Shown piece after piece: positions 6,753 through 40,630 of a DNA stretch of 64,000 nt (position 1 is the first letter of the stretch; every line of letters starts with the position of its first letter). Under the pieces are notes generated by a model. It was given only the letters and a program-made list of their open reading frames with translations, was not told where the DNA came from and made no database searches. A program made the translations under genes and the position numbers. Origin of the DNA: Geothrix sp. 21YS21S-4. GTDB lineage: Bacteria; Acidobacteriota; Holophagae; Holophagales; Holophagaceae. The stretch spans positions 1,488,001-1,552,000 of the forward strand of contig NZ_CP132719.1 in assembly GCF_030845995.1 (NCBI RefSeq), given 5' to 3'.

Positions 6753-6867
6753 GGCGGGTCTCCACAGGTCGACCTTCAACTGTACCGGGTCCCGCCCTGT
6801 AACTGGAGCGTAAATTGGGCGGGAAGCCTGGATTGGCGCGGCCCCGGCGATGTTAAGGTCTGGGATC

Positions 6868-8214
6868 ATGGAACGTCCGGAATCCTCCAGAGGCGGTGGG
6901 CCGGGACTCCCGGTCTTCCTGGTGCGCGCCCTCATCTGCCTGGGGGCCATGCTCTTCCTGGGCCTGGGACTGGGGATGAGCCTCCACAAAGGCACTTCCG
7001 CGCCCTGGACCCTCGGCCTGGTGGCCACCCTCGCCATCGTGGTGATCCTCATGGCCCGCTGGCAGGTGCGCCCCGTGGCCGAACCCTTGGGCCAGCTGCT
7101 CGGGGGCTCCCGTCCCCGCGCCATCGAGGATCTGCCCCGGGCCTGGTCCGCCCTGGAGCGGGAAAACCTGGACCTGCGGGAGCGGGCCGCCCGGGACGAC
7201 CGGCTGCTGCCCAGCATCATGGCGCGGCTGGAGGAGGGCGTTCTCCTGTTCGGCGGTGCGGGCCGGTTGGAGCAGTTCAATCCCGCCGCTCAGCGCCACC
7301 TCGGTCTGGGCGCGCCGCTGGGGACGGGGATGGCCGTGGCGGAGGTGCTGCGCGACGCCGCCAGCGCCGCCGAGGTGCAGAAGGCCTACGGGGGCGTGCC
7401 CGCCGAGTGGCGGATGGGGCGCGCCGCCCGGATCCTGCGGGTGCGGGCCATCCCCTTCGCCCCGTTGGGTACCGTGAGCGGGGTCCTGCTCACTTTGGAC
7501 GACGTCACGAGCCAGGAAGCCCTGGAGACCACCCGGCAGAAGTTCATCTCCAACGTCAGCCACGAGCTGAAGACCCCCGTGACCGCCCTCCGGATCGCCG
7601 CCGAGAACCTCCTGGACGAGCCTCTGGACGCGCCGGTCCGCGCGGGAGCCGAATCCATCCTCCGCTCCGTGGACCGCCTGACGCTGCTTCTGGGCGACCT
7701 CTCCGAGCTGAGCCGGATCGAGAGCGGCGCCCTCCGCCTCGACCCCGTGCGGCTGGATCTGGCGACCTTCATCGCCTCCCTGGTGAAGGATCAGCAGGAG
7801 CGCTTGTCCGCCGCGGACGTGGCTCTCGATACCGTCGTCGACGCGCCGGAGGACGCCATGCTGCTGGCGGATCCTTTGCGCCTGAGCCAGGTCCTGGAGA
7901 ACCTCATCTCCAATGCCATCAAGTTCAGTCCGGTGGGTGGCCGGGTGAAGCTCGCGGTCCGCCTGTCGCCCCAGGGCCAGCTGTGGGAAGTGGCCGACCA
8001 GGGACCGGGCATCCCCGAGGCCGAATTGGGGCGGATCTTCGAGCGCTTCTACCGCTCCCAGGCGGCCAAGGCGAAGCCAGGCACCGGCCTGGGCCTGGCC
8101 ATCGTCAAGCACCTGTGCCGCCTCATGGGGGGCGAGGTCACGGTGGAGAGCCGGCCCGGCGAAGGCGCGGTCTTCCGGGTGATGCTCCCGCCGGTTCCCG
8201 CGGGCGAGGACTAG
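6868..8214 (+). CDS. phoR: PhoR-like sensor histidine kinase
   Basis: This 448-residue membrane kinase probably senses phosphate status through the Pst complex and PhoU and phosphorylates PhoB. Domains in order are two membrane segments (about 15-65), a PAS-like sensor (about 105-215), a HisKA domain with phosphoacceptor His232 in SNVSHELKTPV, and a HATPase domain with LENLISNAIKF, VADQGPGIPEAELG and GTGLGLAIVKHLC. ATG 6868 is preferred to ATG 6850 because an AAGG-type site precedes it. Its TAG stop forms the edge of a mobile repeat, beyond which the cognate phoB lies in the opposite orientation. The phosphate role is inferred from the neighbours. Confidence 0.88.
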   Translation: MERPESSRGGGPGLPVFLVRALICLGAMLFLGLGLGMSLHKGTSAPWTLGLVATLAIVVILMARWQVRPVAEPLGQLLGGSRPRAIEDLPRAWSALERENLDLRERAARDDRLLPSIMARLEEGVLLFGGAGRLEQFNPAAQRHLGLGAPLGTGMAVAEVLRDAASAAEVQKAYGGVPAEWRMGRAARILRVRAIPFAPLGTVSGVLLTLDDVTSQEALETTRQKFISNVSHELKTPVTALRIAAENLLDEPLDAPVRAGAESILRSVDRLTLLLGDLSELSRIESGALRLDPVRLDLATFIASLVKDQQERLSAADVALDTVVDAPEDAMLLADPLRLSQVLENLISNAIKFSPVGGRVKLAVRLSPQGQLWEVADQGPGIPEAELGRIFERFYRSQAAKAKPGTGLGLAIVKHLCRLMGGEVTVESRPGEGAVFRVMLPPVPAGED

Positions 8215-8608
8215 GGCCTGTCTTCAAATGGGGGTGCGGCCGCGCGAGGGACGCCGCCCAAACGAGGCAAGGAAAGCGACGGAGGCTCCAGCTCCGGGAG
8301 CCGAAGGCGAACGGGAGGCATGCACCGCGTGCCGTCAGCTGGAGGCGATAGTGGGACTATCGGCGAGGAGTTTGACGCAGCATCGCGCCGGGCGCCGCCC
8401 CTCGCCCGGTTCCGCCCTCTGCCCGGCACTGGCTGGGCAGGAGCAGGCCCCATGCGGGGCCTGCGATAGGGAGAGGGGGACGGGGCCAGCCGCGCGCCCA
8501 GGTACGTTGGTGGCCTTGGATGATGTCCCGCATCGCCCCTGCGGCTACCGCCTTCCTGGATCACGCGGCTGGACTCGTCGCGGCTCGCCCTCATTTGAAG
8601 ACAGGCCC
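8214..8608. mobile_element. MITE-like element, copy A (395 bp, terminal inverted repeats, TA-flanked)
   Basis: The gap between the convergent phoR and phoB genes is filled by one non-coding element. GGGCCTGTCTTCAAATG at 8214-8230 is the exact reverse complement of 8592-8608, and the similarity continues imperfectly for about 10 more bases. Each end is bordered by TA (8212-8213 and 8609-8610), as expected for a TA target duplication of the IS630/Tc1 or some IS5-type transposases. No transposase frame exists inside. About 105 bases near the right end (8486-8592) match copy B at 30223-30327 with scattered differences. Compared with copy B it carries an extra structured block of about 200 bases (roughly 8255-8480). 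The flanking TAG stop codons coincide with the element boundary. Confidence 0.82.
8255..8485. other. Structured internal block of MITE copy A, absent from copy B
   Basis: This stretch holds several strong short palindromes: GGCTCC/GGAGCC near 8283, GATAGT-GGG-ACTATC near 8348, and GCAGGCCCC-ATGC-GGGGCCTGC near 8444. No credible coding frame is present. The density of stems suggests a structured transcript or a nested repeat inserted in the parent element. No function can be assigned. Confidence 0.45.
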
Positions 8609-9312
8609 TAAGCGTCGGCGGGCCCGCCCAGCCGGTAGCCCACGCCCACCACGGTCTCGATCAGTTCGGCCGCGGGGCCGCCGATCTTGGCCCGCACGCG
8701 GCGGACGTGGGCGTCGATGGTCCGGCTCTCGCCGAGGTATTCCAGGCCCCACACCTGCTGCAGGATCTTCTCGCGGGTGAGGACGCGGCGGGGATTGGCG
8801 AGAAAGTAGGCCAGCAGTTCGAATTCCCGGCGCGTGAGGTCCACGAGCTGCCCGTCCACCCGGGCCGTGTGCATGTCCAGGTCCACGGTGATGGGGCCGA
8901 AGGCGAGCCGGGGCGCCCGTTCGGCGACGTCGGCGGGGACGGCGCGGCGGAGGATGGCCCGGAGCCGGGCCGCCAGTTCGCGGGTGGAGAAGGGCTTGGA
9001 GACGTAGTCGTCCGCGCCGAGTTCCAGGCCCAGCACGCGGTCGATCTCCTCGCTCCGGGCGGTCACCAGGAGGACCGGCAACGCCCGGTGGGAGGCGTGG
9101 CCGCGGATGGCCCGCAGGACGTCGAGGCCGTCCATGTCCGGCAGGCTGAGATCCAGGAGGGCCGCGTCCAGCCTCGGTCCCGGGGCGTTGAGGGATTGGA
9201 GGGCGTCGCGGCCGGTGCCCACGCTGGTCAGGCTGAAGCCCTCCCGGCGCAGGTGCTGCTCCAGGCCCAGCCGGATCTCGGAGTCGTCTTCGAGGAGGAG
9301 GATGTGGGGCAT
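8608..9312 (-). CDS. phoB: PhoB-like OmpR-family response regulator
   Basis: This 234-residue transcription factor has a receiver domain with acidic pocket E8/D9/D10, phosphoacceptor D54 (LLDLSLPDMDG) and the switch lysine in YVSKPFS. An OmpR-type winged-helix DNA-binding domain follows (LTRREFELLAYFLANP to TIDAHVRRVRAKI). It is the last gene of the pstSCAB-phoU-phoB operon, starting 14 bases after phoU, and it presumably activates that operon when phosphate is scarce. ATG 9312 is the conserved start. Its stop codon TAG (8610-8608) overlaps the right end of the mobile repeat. The partner kinase gene lies beyond the repeat on the opposite strand. Confidence 0.9.
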   Translation of the reverse strand: MPHILLLEDDSEIRLGLEQHLRREGFSLTSVGTGRDALQSLNAPGPRLDAALLDLSLPDMDGLDVLRAIRGHASHRALPVLLVTARSEEIDRVLGLELGADDYVSKPFSTRELAARLRAILRRAVPADVAERAPRLAFGPITVDLDMHTARVDGQLVDLTRREFELLAYFLANPRRVLTREKILQQVWGLEYLGESRTIDAHVRRVRAKIGGPAAELIETVVGVGYRLGGPADA

Positions 9313-9326
9313 GGGAAGGCCTGCGG

Positions 9327-10001
9327 CTAGTCTACCGGCTCGATCGGATCGATGCGGAGGTAGGGGTGCTTGGCGCTGCGCCCCTGGAGGATGAACAGCA
9401 CCTCCTCGGCGATGTTGGTGGCCTGGTCGGCGACCCGCTCCCAGTTCTTGATGACCAGGATGAGGTGGCTGGCCCGCTCGATGCATAGGGGATCCGCCAG
9501 CATGATCCGGAGAAGGTCGCGGTAGATCTTCCCGTAGAGGGCGTCCACGCTGTCGTCGCTCTGGATCACGGCCTGGGCCAGGGCGGCGTCGCTGCCCACG
9601 AAGGCGTCCACCGCCCGGCGCACCATGCTGCGGGTCTCGGTCCCCAGCCGCTCCAGGTCGCCGGCGGCGAGGATCGGGGGATGCACCATGGACACGCGAC
9701 GGGCGATGTTGGAACAGTGGTCGCCGATCCGCTCCAGCTCGGGGATGATCTTGAGGCTGGAGGCGATCAGGCGCAGGTCCGTGGCGGCAGGGGAGCGCAG
9801 GGCCAGGAGGTCGATGCAGTGCTGGTCGAGTCTCAGCTCCCACTCGTCCATCTTGCGGTCGAGGATGCCCACCCGCTCGGCCTTGGCCGGCGAGGGCTCC
9901 CCCAGGGCCTGGATGGTGAGGTCGATCATCTCCTCCGCCACGCCCGCCATGGCCATGATCCCGTCGCGGAGCTCCTTCAGTTCCGTGTCGAACAGCCGCA
10001 T
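9327..10001 (-). CDS. phoU: Phosphate-specific transport system accessory protein PhoU
   Basis: This 224-residue cytoplasmic protein has the two three-helix-bundle repeats of PhoU, the negative regulator that links PstSCAB to PhoR. Metal-binding family motifs are visible in both halves: ELERIGDHCSNIARR near residue 78 and NWERVADQATNIAEE near residue 185. The start ATG 10001-9999 shares a base with the pstB stop (TGATG) and is preceded by GGGGAGG. It lies between pstB and phoB in the minus-strand operon. Confidence 0.95.
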   Translation of the reverse strand: MRLFDTELKELRDGIMAMAGVAEEMIDLTIQALGEPSPAKAERVGILDRKMDEWELRLDQHCIDLLALRSPAATDLRLIASSLKIIPELERIGDHCSNIARRVSMVHPPILAAGDLERLGTETRSMVRRAVDAFVGSDAALAQAVIQSDDSVDALYGKIYRDLLRIMLADPLCIERASHLILVIKNWERVADQATNIAEEVLFILQGRSAKHPYLRIDPIEPVD

Positions 10002-27117: not shown

Positions 27118-27648
27118 ATGCGCGTCATCGCGGGTGCCCTCAAGGGCCGCAGGCTCATGGCGCCCCCGCCGGGCGACCTGCGGGTGCGTCCCACCTCGGA
27201 TCGGGCCCGGGAGGCGCTGTTTTCCATCCTCCAGAGGTGGCCGGGGGGCGAGTTCCTCGACCTGTGCGCCGGTACCGGCGCCGTGGGCGTGGAGGCCCTG
27301 TCCCGGGGCTACGAGCCGGTCACCTGCGTGGAGTCGGCGGATCCGGGGTGGTCCAGCCTGGTCCGGAACACGCAGGGCACTCCGGTTCGCACCCTGCGCG
27401 CGGACATCCGCCGCCTGCCGGCGGATGCCTTCGGGAACCAGGCCGTGATTTTCATGGATCCGCCCTATGATCACGCGGAAGATCTGTGGGTGAAGATGGC
27501 GGATAGGCTCAGATCGTGGATTGCGGCGGATGGTGTGCTGGTCTTTGAAACGGAGGCCCGCACCGCGTTGGAATTACAGCCGGGATGGGCGCTTGCCGAA
27601 AGGCGTGAATATGGTGCGGCCCGATTCCATCTCTGGACCCCGGCCTGA
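27118..27648 (+). CDS. rsmD: 16S rRNA (guanine-966 N2)-methyltransferase RsmD
   Basis: This 176-residue SAM-dependent methyltransferase modifies a guanine in 16S rRNA. It begins MRVIAGALKGRRL. The family block VRPTSDRAREALFSIL, the SAM motif LDLCAGTGAVGVEALSRG and the catalytic MDPPY follow. It starts 10 bases after fabH and its end overlaps the chemoreceptor gene by 38 bases. Confidence 0.94.
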   Translation: MRVIAGALKGRRLMAPPPGDLRVRPTSDRAREALFSILQRWPGGEFLDLCAGTGAVGVEALSRGYEPVTCVESADPGWSSLVRNTQGTPVRTLRADIRRLPADAFGNQAVIFMDPPYDHAEDLWVKMADRLRSWIAADGVLVFETEARTALELQPGWALAERREYGAARFHLWTPA

Positions 27649-30157
27649 GTTCGGGACGGCGGAACCCGTCCAGCTCAGCGCTTCCGTCCGTGCTCTCGTC
27701 CTGGCGCGCCTGCGCCTGGGGACGGGCGTCATCTGGGTTCTCGCGTACATCATCGGGCTGCTGCTCTTCTTCTTCACCGCGCCACCGGGGTTCCACCTCA
27801 CGTTCCCCGGGGTGGCGGCAGCCTTCGGACTGGTTCTGCTGGCGGCGATGGCGTCCTTCTTCCAGATCCGGCATCTGGGGCGGGCGCTGGGCGGGACCCT
27901 GGGACCGGAGCTGTACCGCTCCCTGACGTGGTTCCCCCAGAGTTCCTCGCTCCTGTTGTTCTACCTGACGGCCTGCCTCAGCGCCATGGCATACCTGTGG
28001 GTGAAGCTCCAGCTCCAGCAGAGCATCTGGGTCAGCTTCCTCACCGTCGCGCTGTTCCTGGTGATCGGCGCCCTTTCGGCCATCAGCCAGTACTTCCTGT
28101 CCAAGCAGAACCTGATGAAGGTCTACCAGCTCCTGGCGGGCCAGCCCGGCTTCCATGAGTCGGAAGCCCGGTTCTCCACGAGCCTGCGCGCCAAGTTCGG
28201 GTTCGGCATCCTGGGCATGACGGGCGGCGTGGTGCTGCTGTCCATCCTAGTCTCGGGCCTGACGCTCCAGTCCTCCATCCGCACGAAGGTCACCAGCTAC
28301 GCCCAGAACGAACTGGTGAACCTGGCGGATTCCGTGGCCTTCGTCCTGGAGATGAACACTCCGCCGGAGGATCTCCAGGCCTTCCTCGGGACGCTCAAGC
28401 TGGGTGCCGGAGGCACGGTGTCCCTGCGGCTTCCCGCCAGCCGGGGCGGCGCGATCCTGGGGGCGAAGGGCCGGGTGGCGCGGCCGGGCGACATCCTGGT
28501 GGTGCAGCCGCTGCCGGACGGGTCCGAACTCCGGGCCCTGGTGCCCGAGGCGGAATACGCGGACGCGGTGTGGCGGGCGCTGCGGCCCAACGCCGCCATC
28601 TTCATCCTGGCGTCGATCTTCCTGATCTATTTCATCCAGCTGATCCTCCGCGACGTGCAGCGGCCGCTGGTGCTGCTGAGCCGCAACGCCCGCCGGGTGG
28701 GCGAAGGGCACATCGACAGCCTGGAGACGGTCTACAGCGACGACGAGGTGGCCGCCCTCAGCCAGGGTTTCGGCCGGATGGTGGGCAGCCTGCGCGGGAT
28801 GGTGGTCCAGATCCGCGCCGCCAGCCGCGATCTGGCCAAGGCCTCGAGCGCCATCCGCGAATCGGCCGACGGCGTCCGCCAGTCCAGCCACGGCCAGCGC
28901 GAGCTGATCGAGTCCTTCCACCAGGAGATCAACGAGCTGACCGACACCTCCATCGGGATCAGCGCCAGTTCCATGGAGCTGAGCCTGGCCTCCGAAAGCA
29001 CCAACGCCACCATCGTGGAGATGGCGGCCAGCGTGCAGCAGATCAACCAGAGCATGGACGAGCTGCTGATGGTGGTGGAGGGGATCACCTCGGCCATCCG
29101 GGATTTCGACAGCGCCATCAAGAACGTGGGCAAGAACGTGGACCACCTCGCGGGCCACGCGGTCCACACCAAGGAGTTCGCCGAGAATCTGGAGCAGAGC
29201 ACCTCGGCCATCGACGACAGCGTCAAGATCGCCCAGCGCTACTCCAAGAAGGTGATCCACAACGCCGCGCGCGGCATGGAGCTGGTGAGCCGCAACCGCG
29301 AGAAGATCCAGGTGATCGAGCGCGTGGTGCAGGACTTCCACGGCACGACGCGGACCCTCCTCCAGCTCGGCGCGGACATCGCCAAGATCCTGGACTACAT
29401 CGGGGATCACGCCCAGCAGACCAACCTGTTGGCGCTCAACGCCGCGATCATCGCCTCCCAGGGCGATTCCGCGGGCGACGGCCAGGCCAAAGGCTTTTCC
29501 GTGGTGGCCGACGAAATCAAGCAGCTGGCGGGACAGACGGGGCGCTCCACCCAGGAGATCCAGCAGATCATCGGCACCCTCCAGGCGGAGATCCGCAAGG
29601 CCTACCAGCAGGTGGAGCTGGGGCTGGACGCGGTGCGGGACGGCGCGGAGTCCGTCGGGCAGAGCGAAGAGGCTCTCCAGGCCATCCTGGAGTCCGTCAG
29701 CGAGACCGACAGCGTGGTGGAGAGCATCTTGAACGAGACGCTCCAGCAGGCGGGGCAGGCGTCCCTCATCCATGAGGCCAACCGCAACATCCACAACCAG
29801 GTGGAGACGATCCGGTCGGTCATCGCGGAGCAGCAGCAGACCAGCAACTACATCCTGTCCCTGGCCATGAACGTCCAGCAGGCCACCAGCGTGGTGCGCG
29901 ATTCCACCAAGGAGCAGAGCACGGGCAGCGACGAGATCGCCCGCGCCACGGAGCAGGTCCGCGCCCTGGCCAGCAGCCTCCACGAGATCCTGGCCCGGCA
30001 GGAGGACCACGTCCTGTCCCTGAAGGAGACGATGAACCGCGTCCTGGGCAAGGCGGTGGAGAGCGAGCGCGCCATCGAGGCCTCCAGCGGCGCCGTGGAG
30101 CAGCTGGGTGTGCAGGTGCACATGCTCAACCGCGAGGTAAACATCTTCAAACTTTAG
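27611..30157 (+). CDS. Methyl-accepting chemotaxis-like receptor with multi-pass N-terminus
   Basis: This 848-residue receptor-like protein has an unusual N-terminal membrane part: about four closely spaced segments (25-150), a fifth near 190-215, a modest extracytoplasmic loop (about 215-330), a sixth near 330-355, then HAMP and a long coiled-coil signalling domain. The signalling tip reads NLLALNAAIIASQGDSAGDG, then QAKGFSVVADEIKQLAGQTG. It differs from the usual IEAARAGE hairpin tip and carries a small insertion, so its coupling to CheA/CheW may be altered. ATG 27611 overlaps rsmD, with AAGG upstream. The TAG stop forms the left boundary of the second mobile repeat. Confidence 0.88.
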   Translation: MVRPDSISGPRPEFGTAEPVQLSASVRALVLARLRLGTGVIWVLAYIIGLLLFFFTAPPGFHLTFPGVAAAFGLVLLAAMASFFQIRHLGRALGGTLGPELYRSLTWFPQSSSLLLFYLTACLSAMAYLWVKLQLQQSIWVSFLTVALFLVIGALSAISQYFLSKQNLMKVYQLLAGQPGFHESEARFSTSLRAKFGFGILGMTGGVVLLSILVSGLTLQSSIRTKVTSYAQNELVNLADSVAFVLEMNTPPEDLQAFLGTLKLGAGGTVSLRLPASRGGAILGAKGRVARPGDILVVQPLPDGSELRALVPEAEYADAVWRALRPNAAIFILASIFLIYFIQLILRDVQRPLVLLSRNARRVGEGHIDSLETVYSDDEVAALSQGFGRMVGSLRGMVVQIRAASRDLAKASSAIRESADGVRQSSHGQRELIESFHQEINELTDTSIGISASSMELSLASESTNATIVEMAASVQQINQSMDELLMVVEGITSAIRDFDSAIKNVGKNVDHLAGHAVHTKEFAENLEQSTSAIDDSVKIAQRYSKKVIHNAARGMELVSRNREKIQVIERVVQDFHGTTRTLLQLGADIAKILDYIGDHAQQTNLLALNAAIIASQGDSAGDGQAKGFSVVADEIKQLAGQTGRSTQEIQQIIGTLQAEIRKAYQQVELGLDAVRDGAESVGQSEEALQAILESVSETDSVVESILNETLQQAGQASLIHEANRNIHNQVETIRSVIAEQQQTSNYILSLAMNVQQATSVVRDSTKEQSTGSDEIARATEQVRALASSLHEILARQEDHVLSLKETMNRVLGKAVESERAIEASSGAVEQLGVQVHMLNREVNIFKL

Positions 30158-30344
30158 GCTCTGCTTTCAAGGTGGGGTGCGGCCGCGCGAGGGGCCCGGC
30201 CCCTCGCCCTTCGGGATGGGTCCAGCCGCGCGCCCAGGCGCGTTGGCGGCCTTGGACGATGTCCCGCATCGCCCGGCGGCCACCGCCTTCCTGGATCACG
30301 CGGCTGAACCCATCGCGGCTCGCATCCACTTTGAGAGCAGACCC
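30157..30344. mobile_element. MITE-like element, copy B (188 bp)
   Basis: This is a shorter relative of the element at 8214-8608. Its left end GGCTCTGCTTTCAA (30157-30170) is an imperfect inverted repeat of the right end TTGAGAGCAGACCC (30331-30344). Both ends are bordered by TA (30155-30156 and 30345-30346). The left arm shares GTGCGGCCGCGCGAGGG with copy A, and the segment from CAGCCGCGCGCCCAGG (30223) to the right end matches copy A with scattered substitutions. The GAGGGGCCCGGCCCCTC palindrome sits near 30188. No coding potential. The receptor gene stop codon TAG overlaps its left edge. Confidence 0.8.
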
Positions 30345-30382
30345 TAGGGCGCTGGTAGGCTGAAGCGGATCCCGGGCCCTCC

Positions 30383-40554: not shown

Positions 40555-40630
<76 letters not shown>

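Follow-up and report, generated by a model that had tools for sequence, protein, structure and literature searches.

We take PF13340 (DUF4096) to be the transposase of the IS5 family, IS427-like group, and insertion sequences (ISs) of the DUF4096 type with the T1-like ends described below are presumably to be placed in this IS427-like group. Duplication of a TA target is a trait of IS630 too. A 1993 report by Fournier et al., cited in PMC6471742, is said, to go by its title, to describe IS870, whose CTAG target completes the stop codon of the frame of the IS itself. REP, BIME and REPIN sequences (GTAG and CGTC families) are described as palindromic, often paired in opposite orientation and located mostly downstream of genes (PMC3733652). 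The Chunjie miniature inverted-repeat transposable element (MITE) of Geobacter uraniireducens is described as 178-235 bp long and intergenic, with one copy in an operon (PMC10969869). In this report we describe two elements, A and B, and our overall reading, to which we assign a probability of about 0.85, is that they are MITEs of a Geothrix-wide family which moved in trans by an IS5-type mechanism, survived at stop codons and carry hairpin arms found phylum-wide.

The window, by which we mean the whole stretch of 64,000 bp analysed, belongs to the 3.08 Mb one-contig genome of Geothrix sp. 21YS21S-4, in which it covers positions 1488001-1552000. Element A, with T1-type ends, occupies positions 8212-8610 of the plus strand and measures 399 bp when both TA dinucleotides are counted. 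Its terminal inverted repeats (TIRs), at 8212-8230 on the plus strand and 8592-8610 on the minus strand, TA included, are perfect over 19 bp, and sequence comparison confirmed the preliminary description, in which 8214-8230 was the exact reverse complement of 8592-8608 with TA borders. The outermost bases of both repeats double as stop codons of the host genes, with 8212-8214 forming the TAG stop of a histidine kinase gene (HisKA and HATPase_c; 6850-8214, plus strand) and 8608-8610 forming, on the minus strand, the TAG stop of a gene for a response regulator with a Trans_reg_C domain (8608-9330, minus strand). The end pattern TAGGGYCTGTYTTCAAA, allowing up to three mismatches, occurred four times in the window, every time at an end of element A or B, while shuffled windows contained a mean of 0.11 occurrences and none of 100 shuffles contained four. 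The earlier statement that no transposase frame is present was borne out, and the two long frames crossing element A (127 aa, one per strand) matched no Pfam family at E 0.1.

Element B (30155-30346, plus strand, 192 bp) corresponds to the shorter relative with degenerate ends that had been placed at 30157-30344. It has degenerate T1 ends, has lost the left hairpin arm and has kept the right one (30216-30315, minus strand), and its left end lies at the TAG stop of a gene for a methyl-accepting chemotaxis protein (27521-30157, plus strand). Alignment with element A covered 134 bases at 85% identity, together with a weak match of 48 bases at 79% (E 1.6e-4).

The family had been labelled a two-copy one, with two copies in 64 kb taken to suggest a multicopy family in the genome. 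A whole-genome search bore out the multicopy family and not the label, since about nine copies were found. The window pair, with T1 ends (TAGGGYCTGTYTTCAAA and variants), lies at genome positions 1496212-1496610 (A) and 1518155-1518346 (B). Three copies have T2 ends, which are TAGGAGYGYGTCCA-like (1429489-1429821, 2142668-2142940 and 88105-88377), and a further copy lies at about 176259-176535. The third and last end type in the genome, GGAGCCGATCGCCCG, is represented by a single copy at about 481190-481600 (L238), in which the arms are recognisable and the left end is degenerate. This copy and two others, at about 1693226-1693324 and at 162405-162474, are short or have degenerate ends. Unpaired single end-like matches, for example at 2132375, were excluded from the count, as were two weak DNA matches (2580495 and 1636188) that appeared coding-like by eye.

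Among the matches listed, element A was matched at E<=0.001 in 23 of 25 Geothrix genomes, its own included, one of them (G013) weakly at 3.1e-4, and in 0 of 16 genomes from other genera of the class. At locus B, all fetched relatives but one (28 of 29; the exception is L132) have the upstream chemotaxis gene, and the site was empty in all 28 readable relatives, where the gap measures 33-106 bp as against 225 bp here. At locus A, 24 of 29 fetched relatives have a readable kinase gene and a readable regulator gene in convergent arrangement, and in none of the 24 was an element like A seen at the orthologous position. In one of these loci (L088, genome G041), the two convergent stops overlap within one CTAG, and from its sequence it can be derived that one insertion with TA duplication into a site of this kind would yield element A, with a TAG of its own for each gene. 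In another (L091, genome G002), 24 bp separate the two genes, and at the kinase stop there is a 17-base stretch, three mismatches away from a T1 end, that may be left over from an insertion into that stop, in which case the site would be older or would have been hit twice. The spacers of L104 (284 bp) and L111 (193 bp) are both without T1-like ends. Other repeat-like sequence, of the ACCACGAAG, CACAGATT and CGCAAAGGGCGCAGAG types, was observed in the convergent gap of L104, L106 and L111. Empty sites, which the preliminary description had suggested looking for in relatives, were therefore present at both window loci, and for the other copies the case is one of site logic. That description had also named, as outcomes speaking against it, a lack of further copies and the same element at orthologous loci of distant relatives; neither of these was observed.

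Profile searches detected PF13340 in 7 of 31 genomes of the genus. The genome of Geothrix sp. 21YS21S-4, searched for PF13340 and PF13358, gave no match, and another IS5 subgroup beyond PF13340/PF13358 could exist there. An IS with the same ends, as sought on the basis of the preliminary description, was found in a relative, G020, and matches at both ends. This genome contains seven full DUF4096-type IS5 copies of 864-865 bp, with a TAGGGCCTGTTTTCAAAGTC-like start and a GACTTTGAAAACACACCCTA-like end, all seven of which are inserted between C and G (CTAG target); the one copy examined has two frames, of 129 and 166 codons, which overlap. A T1-like end was present at 13 of 17 PF13340 loci compared to 1 of 14 DDE_3 (IS630) loci, loci that are not independent, as G020 alone contributes 10 PF13340 and 9 DDE_3 loci. 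Single T1 ends were also found beside PF13340 matches in G012, G014 and G045. Judged from these sequences, the T1 shell is the shell of an IS5-type element, and movement of T1 elements in trans by an IS5-type transposase is a well-supported inference; A and B themselves would have been moved by such a transposase supplied in trans. The copies in Geothrix sp. 21YS21S-4 are probably immobile now, because no matching transposase was found in that genome. No partner IS for the T2 ends, the third end type or most other shells was found in the fetched loci, where IS pairs came from T1 only, and the genes enclosed by other long end pairs were unrelated by eye.

The preliminary description had left the choice between an IS630/Tc1 and an IS5-group enzyme targeting TA, and only the IS5 part of this proposal stood. 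Mobilisation by an IS630/Tc1 enzyme would also account for the TA duplication, but we consider it extremely improbable, as the own genome is without DDE_3, an end-like match was seen at a single one of the 14 DDE_3 loci in the genus, and the IS5-type copies match both ends. An IS630/Tc1 origin was rejected on similar grounds, with DDE_3 present in 5 of 31 genomes of the genus, the own genome without a match, and ends that do not match.

We then considered where the elements are found relative to genes, using 43 distinct elements of the genus with both ends (40 T1 and 3 T2) among the matches listed. The loci behind them were found by similarity to element A, and elements were picked by requiring TA at both ends with the outer bases free and leaving out truncated copies. 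Targets in this set, among the matches listed, were CTAG (20), TTAA (10), CTAA (6), TTAG (3) and other (4), such that 39 of the 43 intact copies have a YTAR target. In 38 of the 43 intact copies, again among the matches listed, an end TA lies inside the stop codon of a called neighbouring gene, on both sides in 9, on the left only in 17 and on the right only in 12. As a control, called stops were counted in the window at 20 of 525 TA sites and at 12 of 32 YTAR sites, using gene calls from a codon-usage model trained on the window and including the ends of A and B among the control sites. Enrichment at stops gave Fisher values of 6e-39 against TA sites and 5e-6 against YTAR sites, and of 0.004 against the 12 of 22 YTAR sites that lie outside coding sequence or in stops. 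When the element was removed in silico, an in-frame TAA or TAG was obtained in 38 of 38 stop-codon copies among the matches listed, and mere gene truncation by the insertion therefore cannot explain the stop bias. An ATG lies at most one base from an end in 16 of the 43 elements (among the matches listed) compared to 20 of 525 TA sites and 2 of 32 YTAR sites, indicating that many copies split stop-start junctions.

Only one of the seven full IS copies of G020 lies at a called stop, and the bias is thus to be attributed to survival, or to an unequal gene caller, rather than to a preference of the enzyme for stops; survival of harmless insertions is likelier than enzyme preference. TAG is rebuilt on both sides because YTAR reads as a stop on either strand and G is the first base of the element. 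Insertion into a split TAA or TAG stop would consequently provide a TAG for the gene entering from either side at little cost, and insertions elsewhere would be removed by selection, so that the surviving copies would be those in stop codons. By this sequence logic, element A would have entered one stop common to two convergent genes. YTAR together with a first base G offers a simple rule for near-harmless insertion between tightly packed bacterial genes.

Inside the elements are two hairpins, one left and one right, inverted relative to each other, to which extra hairpins may be added. In element A, the left arm (8252-8398, plus strand) contains the CAAGGAAAGCG ... TTGACGCAG motif and is enlarged by a 63-bp fork module (8284-8346, plus strand) that is otherwise seen in T2-ended elements. 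An optional pair of middle hairpins (8408-8479) lies between the arms, and the right arm (8480-8579, minus strand) is inverted relative to the left. Compared with 100 shuffles per strand, the fold of element A is far more stable on both strands, with z values of -7.25 and -7.31. Changes on both sides of a base pair were found in 11 of 25 pairs of the left arm (36 family members without the fork module) and in 11 of 33 pairs of the right arm (31 arms); none of 500 shuffles reached these values, and slid structures gave 1-4, the sliding control being the safer one since relatedness inflates shuffle comparisons of covariation. A weaker measure, which counts further pair types, was reached by 33 of 500 shuffles for the left arm and 3 of 500 for the right. 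Of the two sets, A1 is without fork-module arms and A2 is without arms holding nested modules. We infer that the arms fold as RNA or single-stranded DNA, and most likely they would act when single-stranded, either in read-through RNA or in replicating DNA. Since the two arms share one design and are inverted relative to each other, the same form of arm comes first on either strand, a symmetry that would suit an element read from both sides.

The covarying stems are what a fixed, non-mobile structured RNA gene would be expected to show. However, copies flanked by TA are scattered over unrelated loci, the sites are empty in readable relatives, and no Rfam family exceeded threshold over the elements (gathering score in the window, an E-value threshold at 11 other loci), matches at the other loci lying far under the gathering score; we give an RNA gene of this kind hardly any credence. 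At gathering score, Rfam matched the window once, at a tRNA gene (40555-40627). The very stable fold (z values above) and the location at the 3' ends of genes could also be explained if the elements served as bidirectional transcription terminators or stabilisers of mRNA 3' ends, as has been proposed for some REP repeats. Intrinsic terminators were sought at element A and none was found, in particular no T-run terminator. Moreover, tight operons tolerate copies: the neighbouring genes are co-directional in 26 of the 43 elements, and in 14 of these 26 the next start lies within 4 bases (among the matches listed), which makes a role as terminator unlikely. We hold a terminator or stabiliser role to be improbable.

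The arms are not confined to Geothrix. R1, a covariance model built on the left arm in Geothrix, detected 28 of 247 genomes of the phylum, comprising 18 Geothrix genomes (the own genome included), one from the same family and nine from five other families. Among the loci of these nine, TIR-bounded elements with other ends were recognised by eye in five (L225, L227, L228, L231 and L232), and the ends of the remaining four were indistinct or cut off. A wider model (R3) detected 56 of 297 Acidobacteriota genomes in 15 families, two of them through a single weak match, and missed five Geothrix genomes; in the phylum of Iodobacter, scanned with the same filters as a negative control, it detected 1 of 299 genomes, the seed Iodobacter only. 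The R3 scans of phyla used strict filters, with 14 candidates scored per genome. Up to 61 and 65 R3 copies were found per genome, and 12 in Iodobacter BJB302. Among outside loci, subsets of 91 and 62 were scored by R1 and R3, respectively. In 17 of the 62, R3 found an arm on each strand of a single element, the two lying 17-21 bases apart in 16 loci and 67 in one; these 17 include near-copies from one genome, and as R3 was partly built from loci scored later, we note that at least one arm lies outside the set used to build it (A4) in 14 of the 17 and both arms in 8. Of four other Geothrix elements found by R1 (L220, L221, L222 and L224), two have AAGGAGCTGGAACGGAATAA-like ends, and in the other two T1 ends enclose another arm pair.

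A loop-stem pattern scan of named genomes returned at least 120 stretches, of which 80 carried titles. Among the matches listed, 72 of the 80 titles were Acidobacteria, Holophagaceae or Geothrix (including Geothrix sp. SG200, G. campi SG10 and G. fermentans DSM 14018), four were Iodobacter and four were others, one each. The presence of the arm core in Iodobacter is likely to reflect horizontal arrival. In the Iodobacter-titled loci L279, L283, L288 and L308, the arm core lies within GGGTCTGTTGACGTTTCATTC ends, and L329 and L331 share these ends. Single R3 matches, one per genome, were seen in metagenome-assembled genomes titled Betaproteobacteria, Deltaproteobacteria and Lentisphaerae, and these three may be binning errors. 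A Methylobacterium stretch (L316) had no R3 match and an R1 E value of 0.83, and was taken as a chance match.

The ends around the arms differ, with GGGCCCGTCAGGAAATAAGG, GGGTCTGTGACGAAATAAT, GGGCTCGCGCAGAAATAA, GGAGCCTGTCCGAGTAAT, GGGTCTGTTGACGTTTCATTC (Iodobacter), GTGGCCTGTATTGGAGG and others observed. Automatic boundary detection yielded ends for 31 of the 62 arms; in several shells of the GGGCCCGTCAGG/GGGTCTGTGA kind it placed the boundary at an inner TA, and by eye these shells seem to carry 3-bp TAA/TTA copies. The left arm of a T2 element (L006) was 82% identical to T1 left arms (median of 37; shuffled 61%), whereas T2 and T1 ends were 59% identical (shuffled 53%). The fork module of element A, a T1 element, was present in four T2 elements (L003, L038, L053 and L149) at 83-92% identity, and also in L047, an element with unrecognised ends, at 75%. 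As far as sequence likeness can tell, the resemblance of the L006 arm together with the common fork module favours an exchange of modules between shells, and arms would pass from shell to shell by recombination. A further hairpin module of about 40 bases, GTCTCGYGTATCRCC..GGYGATACCGAGA, was observed in L034, L041, L155, L158, L162, L171, L180, L187, L203, L206 and L211, loci chosen for the arms they contain. It ends at the same point in the internal loop of the arm, before [AG]GG, in 11 of 11 distinct copies, and starts after the CA of the same loop in 10 of 11 (L206 differs); this module could be either a site-specific nested insert or a grown stem.

One reading of these observations, which we offer tentatively and as somewhat short of an even chance, is that the paired arms form a module, selfish or functional and characteristic of Acidobacteriota, that maintains itself by shifting shells and using resident IS5-type transposases, and that folds as a single strand with an active arm first on either strand. 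Alternatively, this may be an ordinary old MITE family in which the arms are a frozen, functionless ancestral interior and the TIRs diverged along with their transposases by plain descent. Most shells indeed open with YTAG or a similar sequence and continue into G-rich ends, as a single IS5-like stock would be expected to show, and arm matches lie mostly in one phylum. Plain descent is, however, at odds with the compensated changes in the stems and with loop positions that are nearly invariant across shells (the scan pattern fixed part of them), and T1 and T2 elements have similar left arms and the fork module in common but not their ends; we regard it as rather unlikely. The finding of a folded core, conserved phylum-wide under changing TIRs, makes the purpose of MITE interiors directly testable.

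No description of this MITE family or of its arm core was found among the open-licence PMC papers listed by literature searches, which is weak evidence of absence. The element itself is an IS5-group MITE and in that respect of an already known kind. With IS5/IS427-like ISs and the MITEs derived from them it shares the T1 ends, the YTAR/CTAG target, which is CTAG in all seven full IS copies, and the flanking TA. It differs from them in that A and B have no frame of their own, and two covarying inverted arms take the place of the two overlapping frames of the IS. The likeness to IS870 lies in the CTAG target and in a stop codon made with the target; there, by title, the stop is that of the element's own frame, whereas here the stops of flanking host genes are rebuilt. 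REP, BIME and REPIN sequences resemble the present family in having paired inverted palindromes downstream of genes (PMC3733652). In contrast, REP and REPIN units are 20-40 bp long, and the GTAG ones are tied to RAYT tyrosine transposases, while the elements described here are mostly 170-410 bp long and TIR-bounded, with IS5-type ends. Membership among REP/REPIN sequences was rejected, as size and TIR architecture differ from those of a GTAG- or CGTC-tagged palindrome of 20-40 bp. Chunjie is likewise a short intergenic MITE, and is set beside the Geothrix family by description (PMC10969869).
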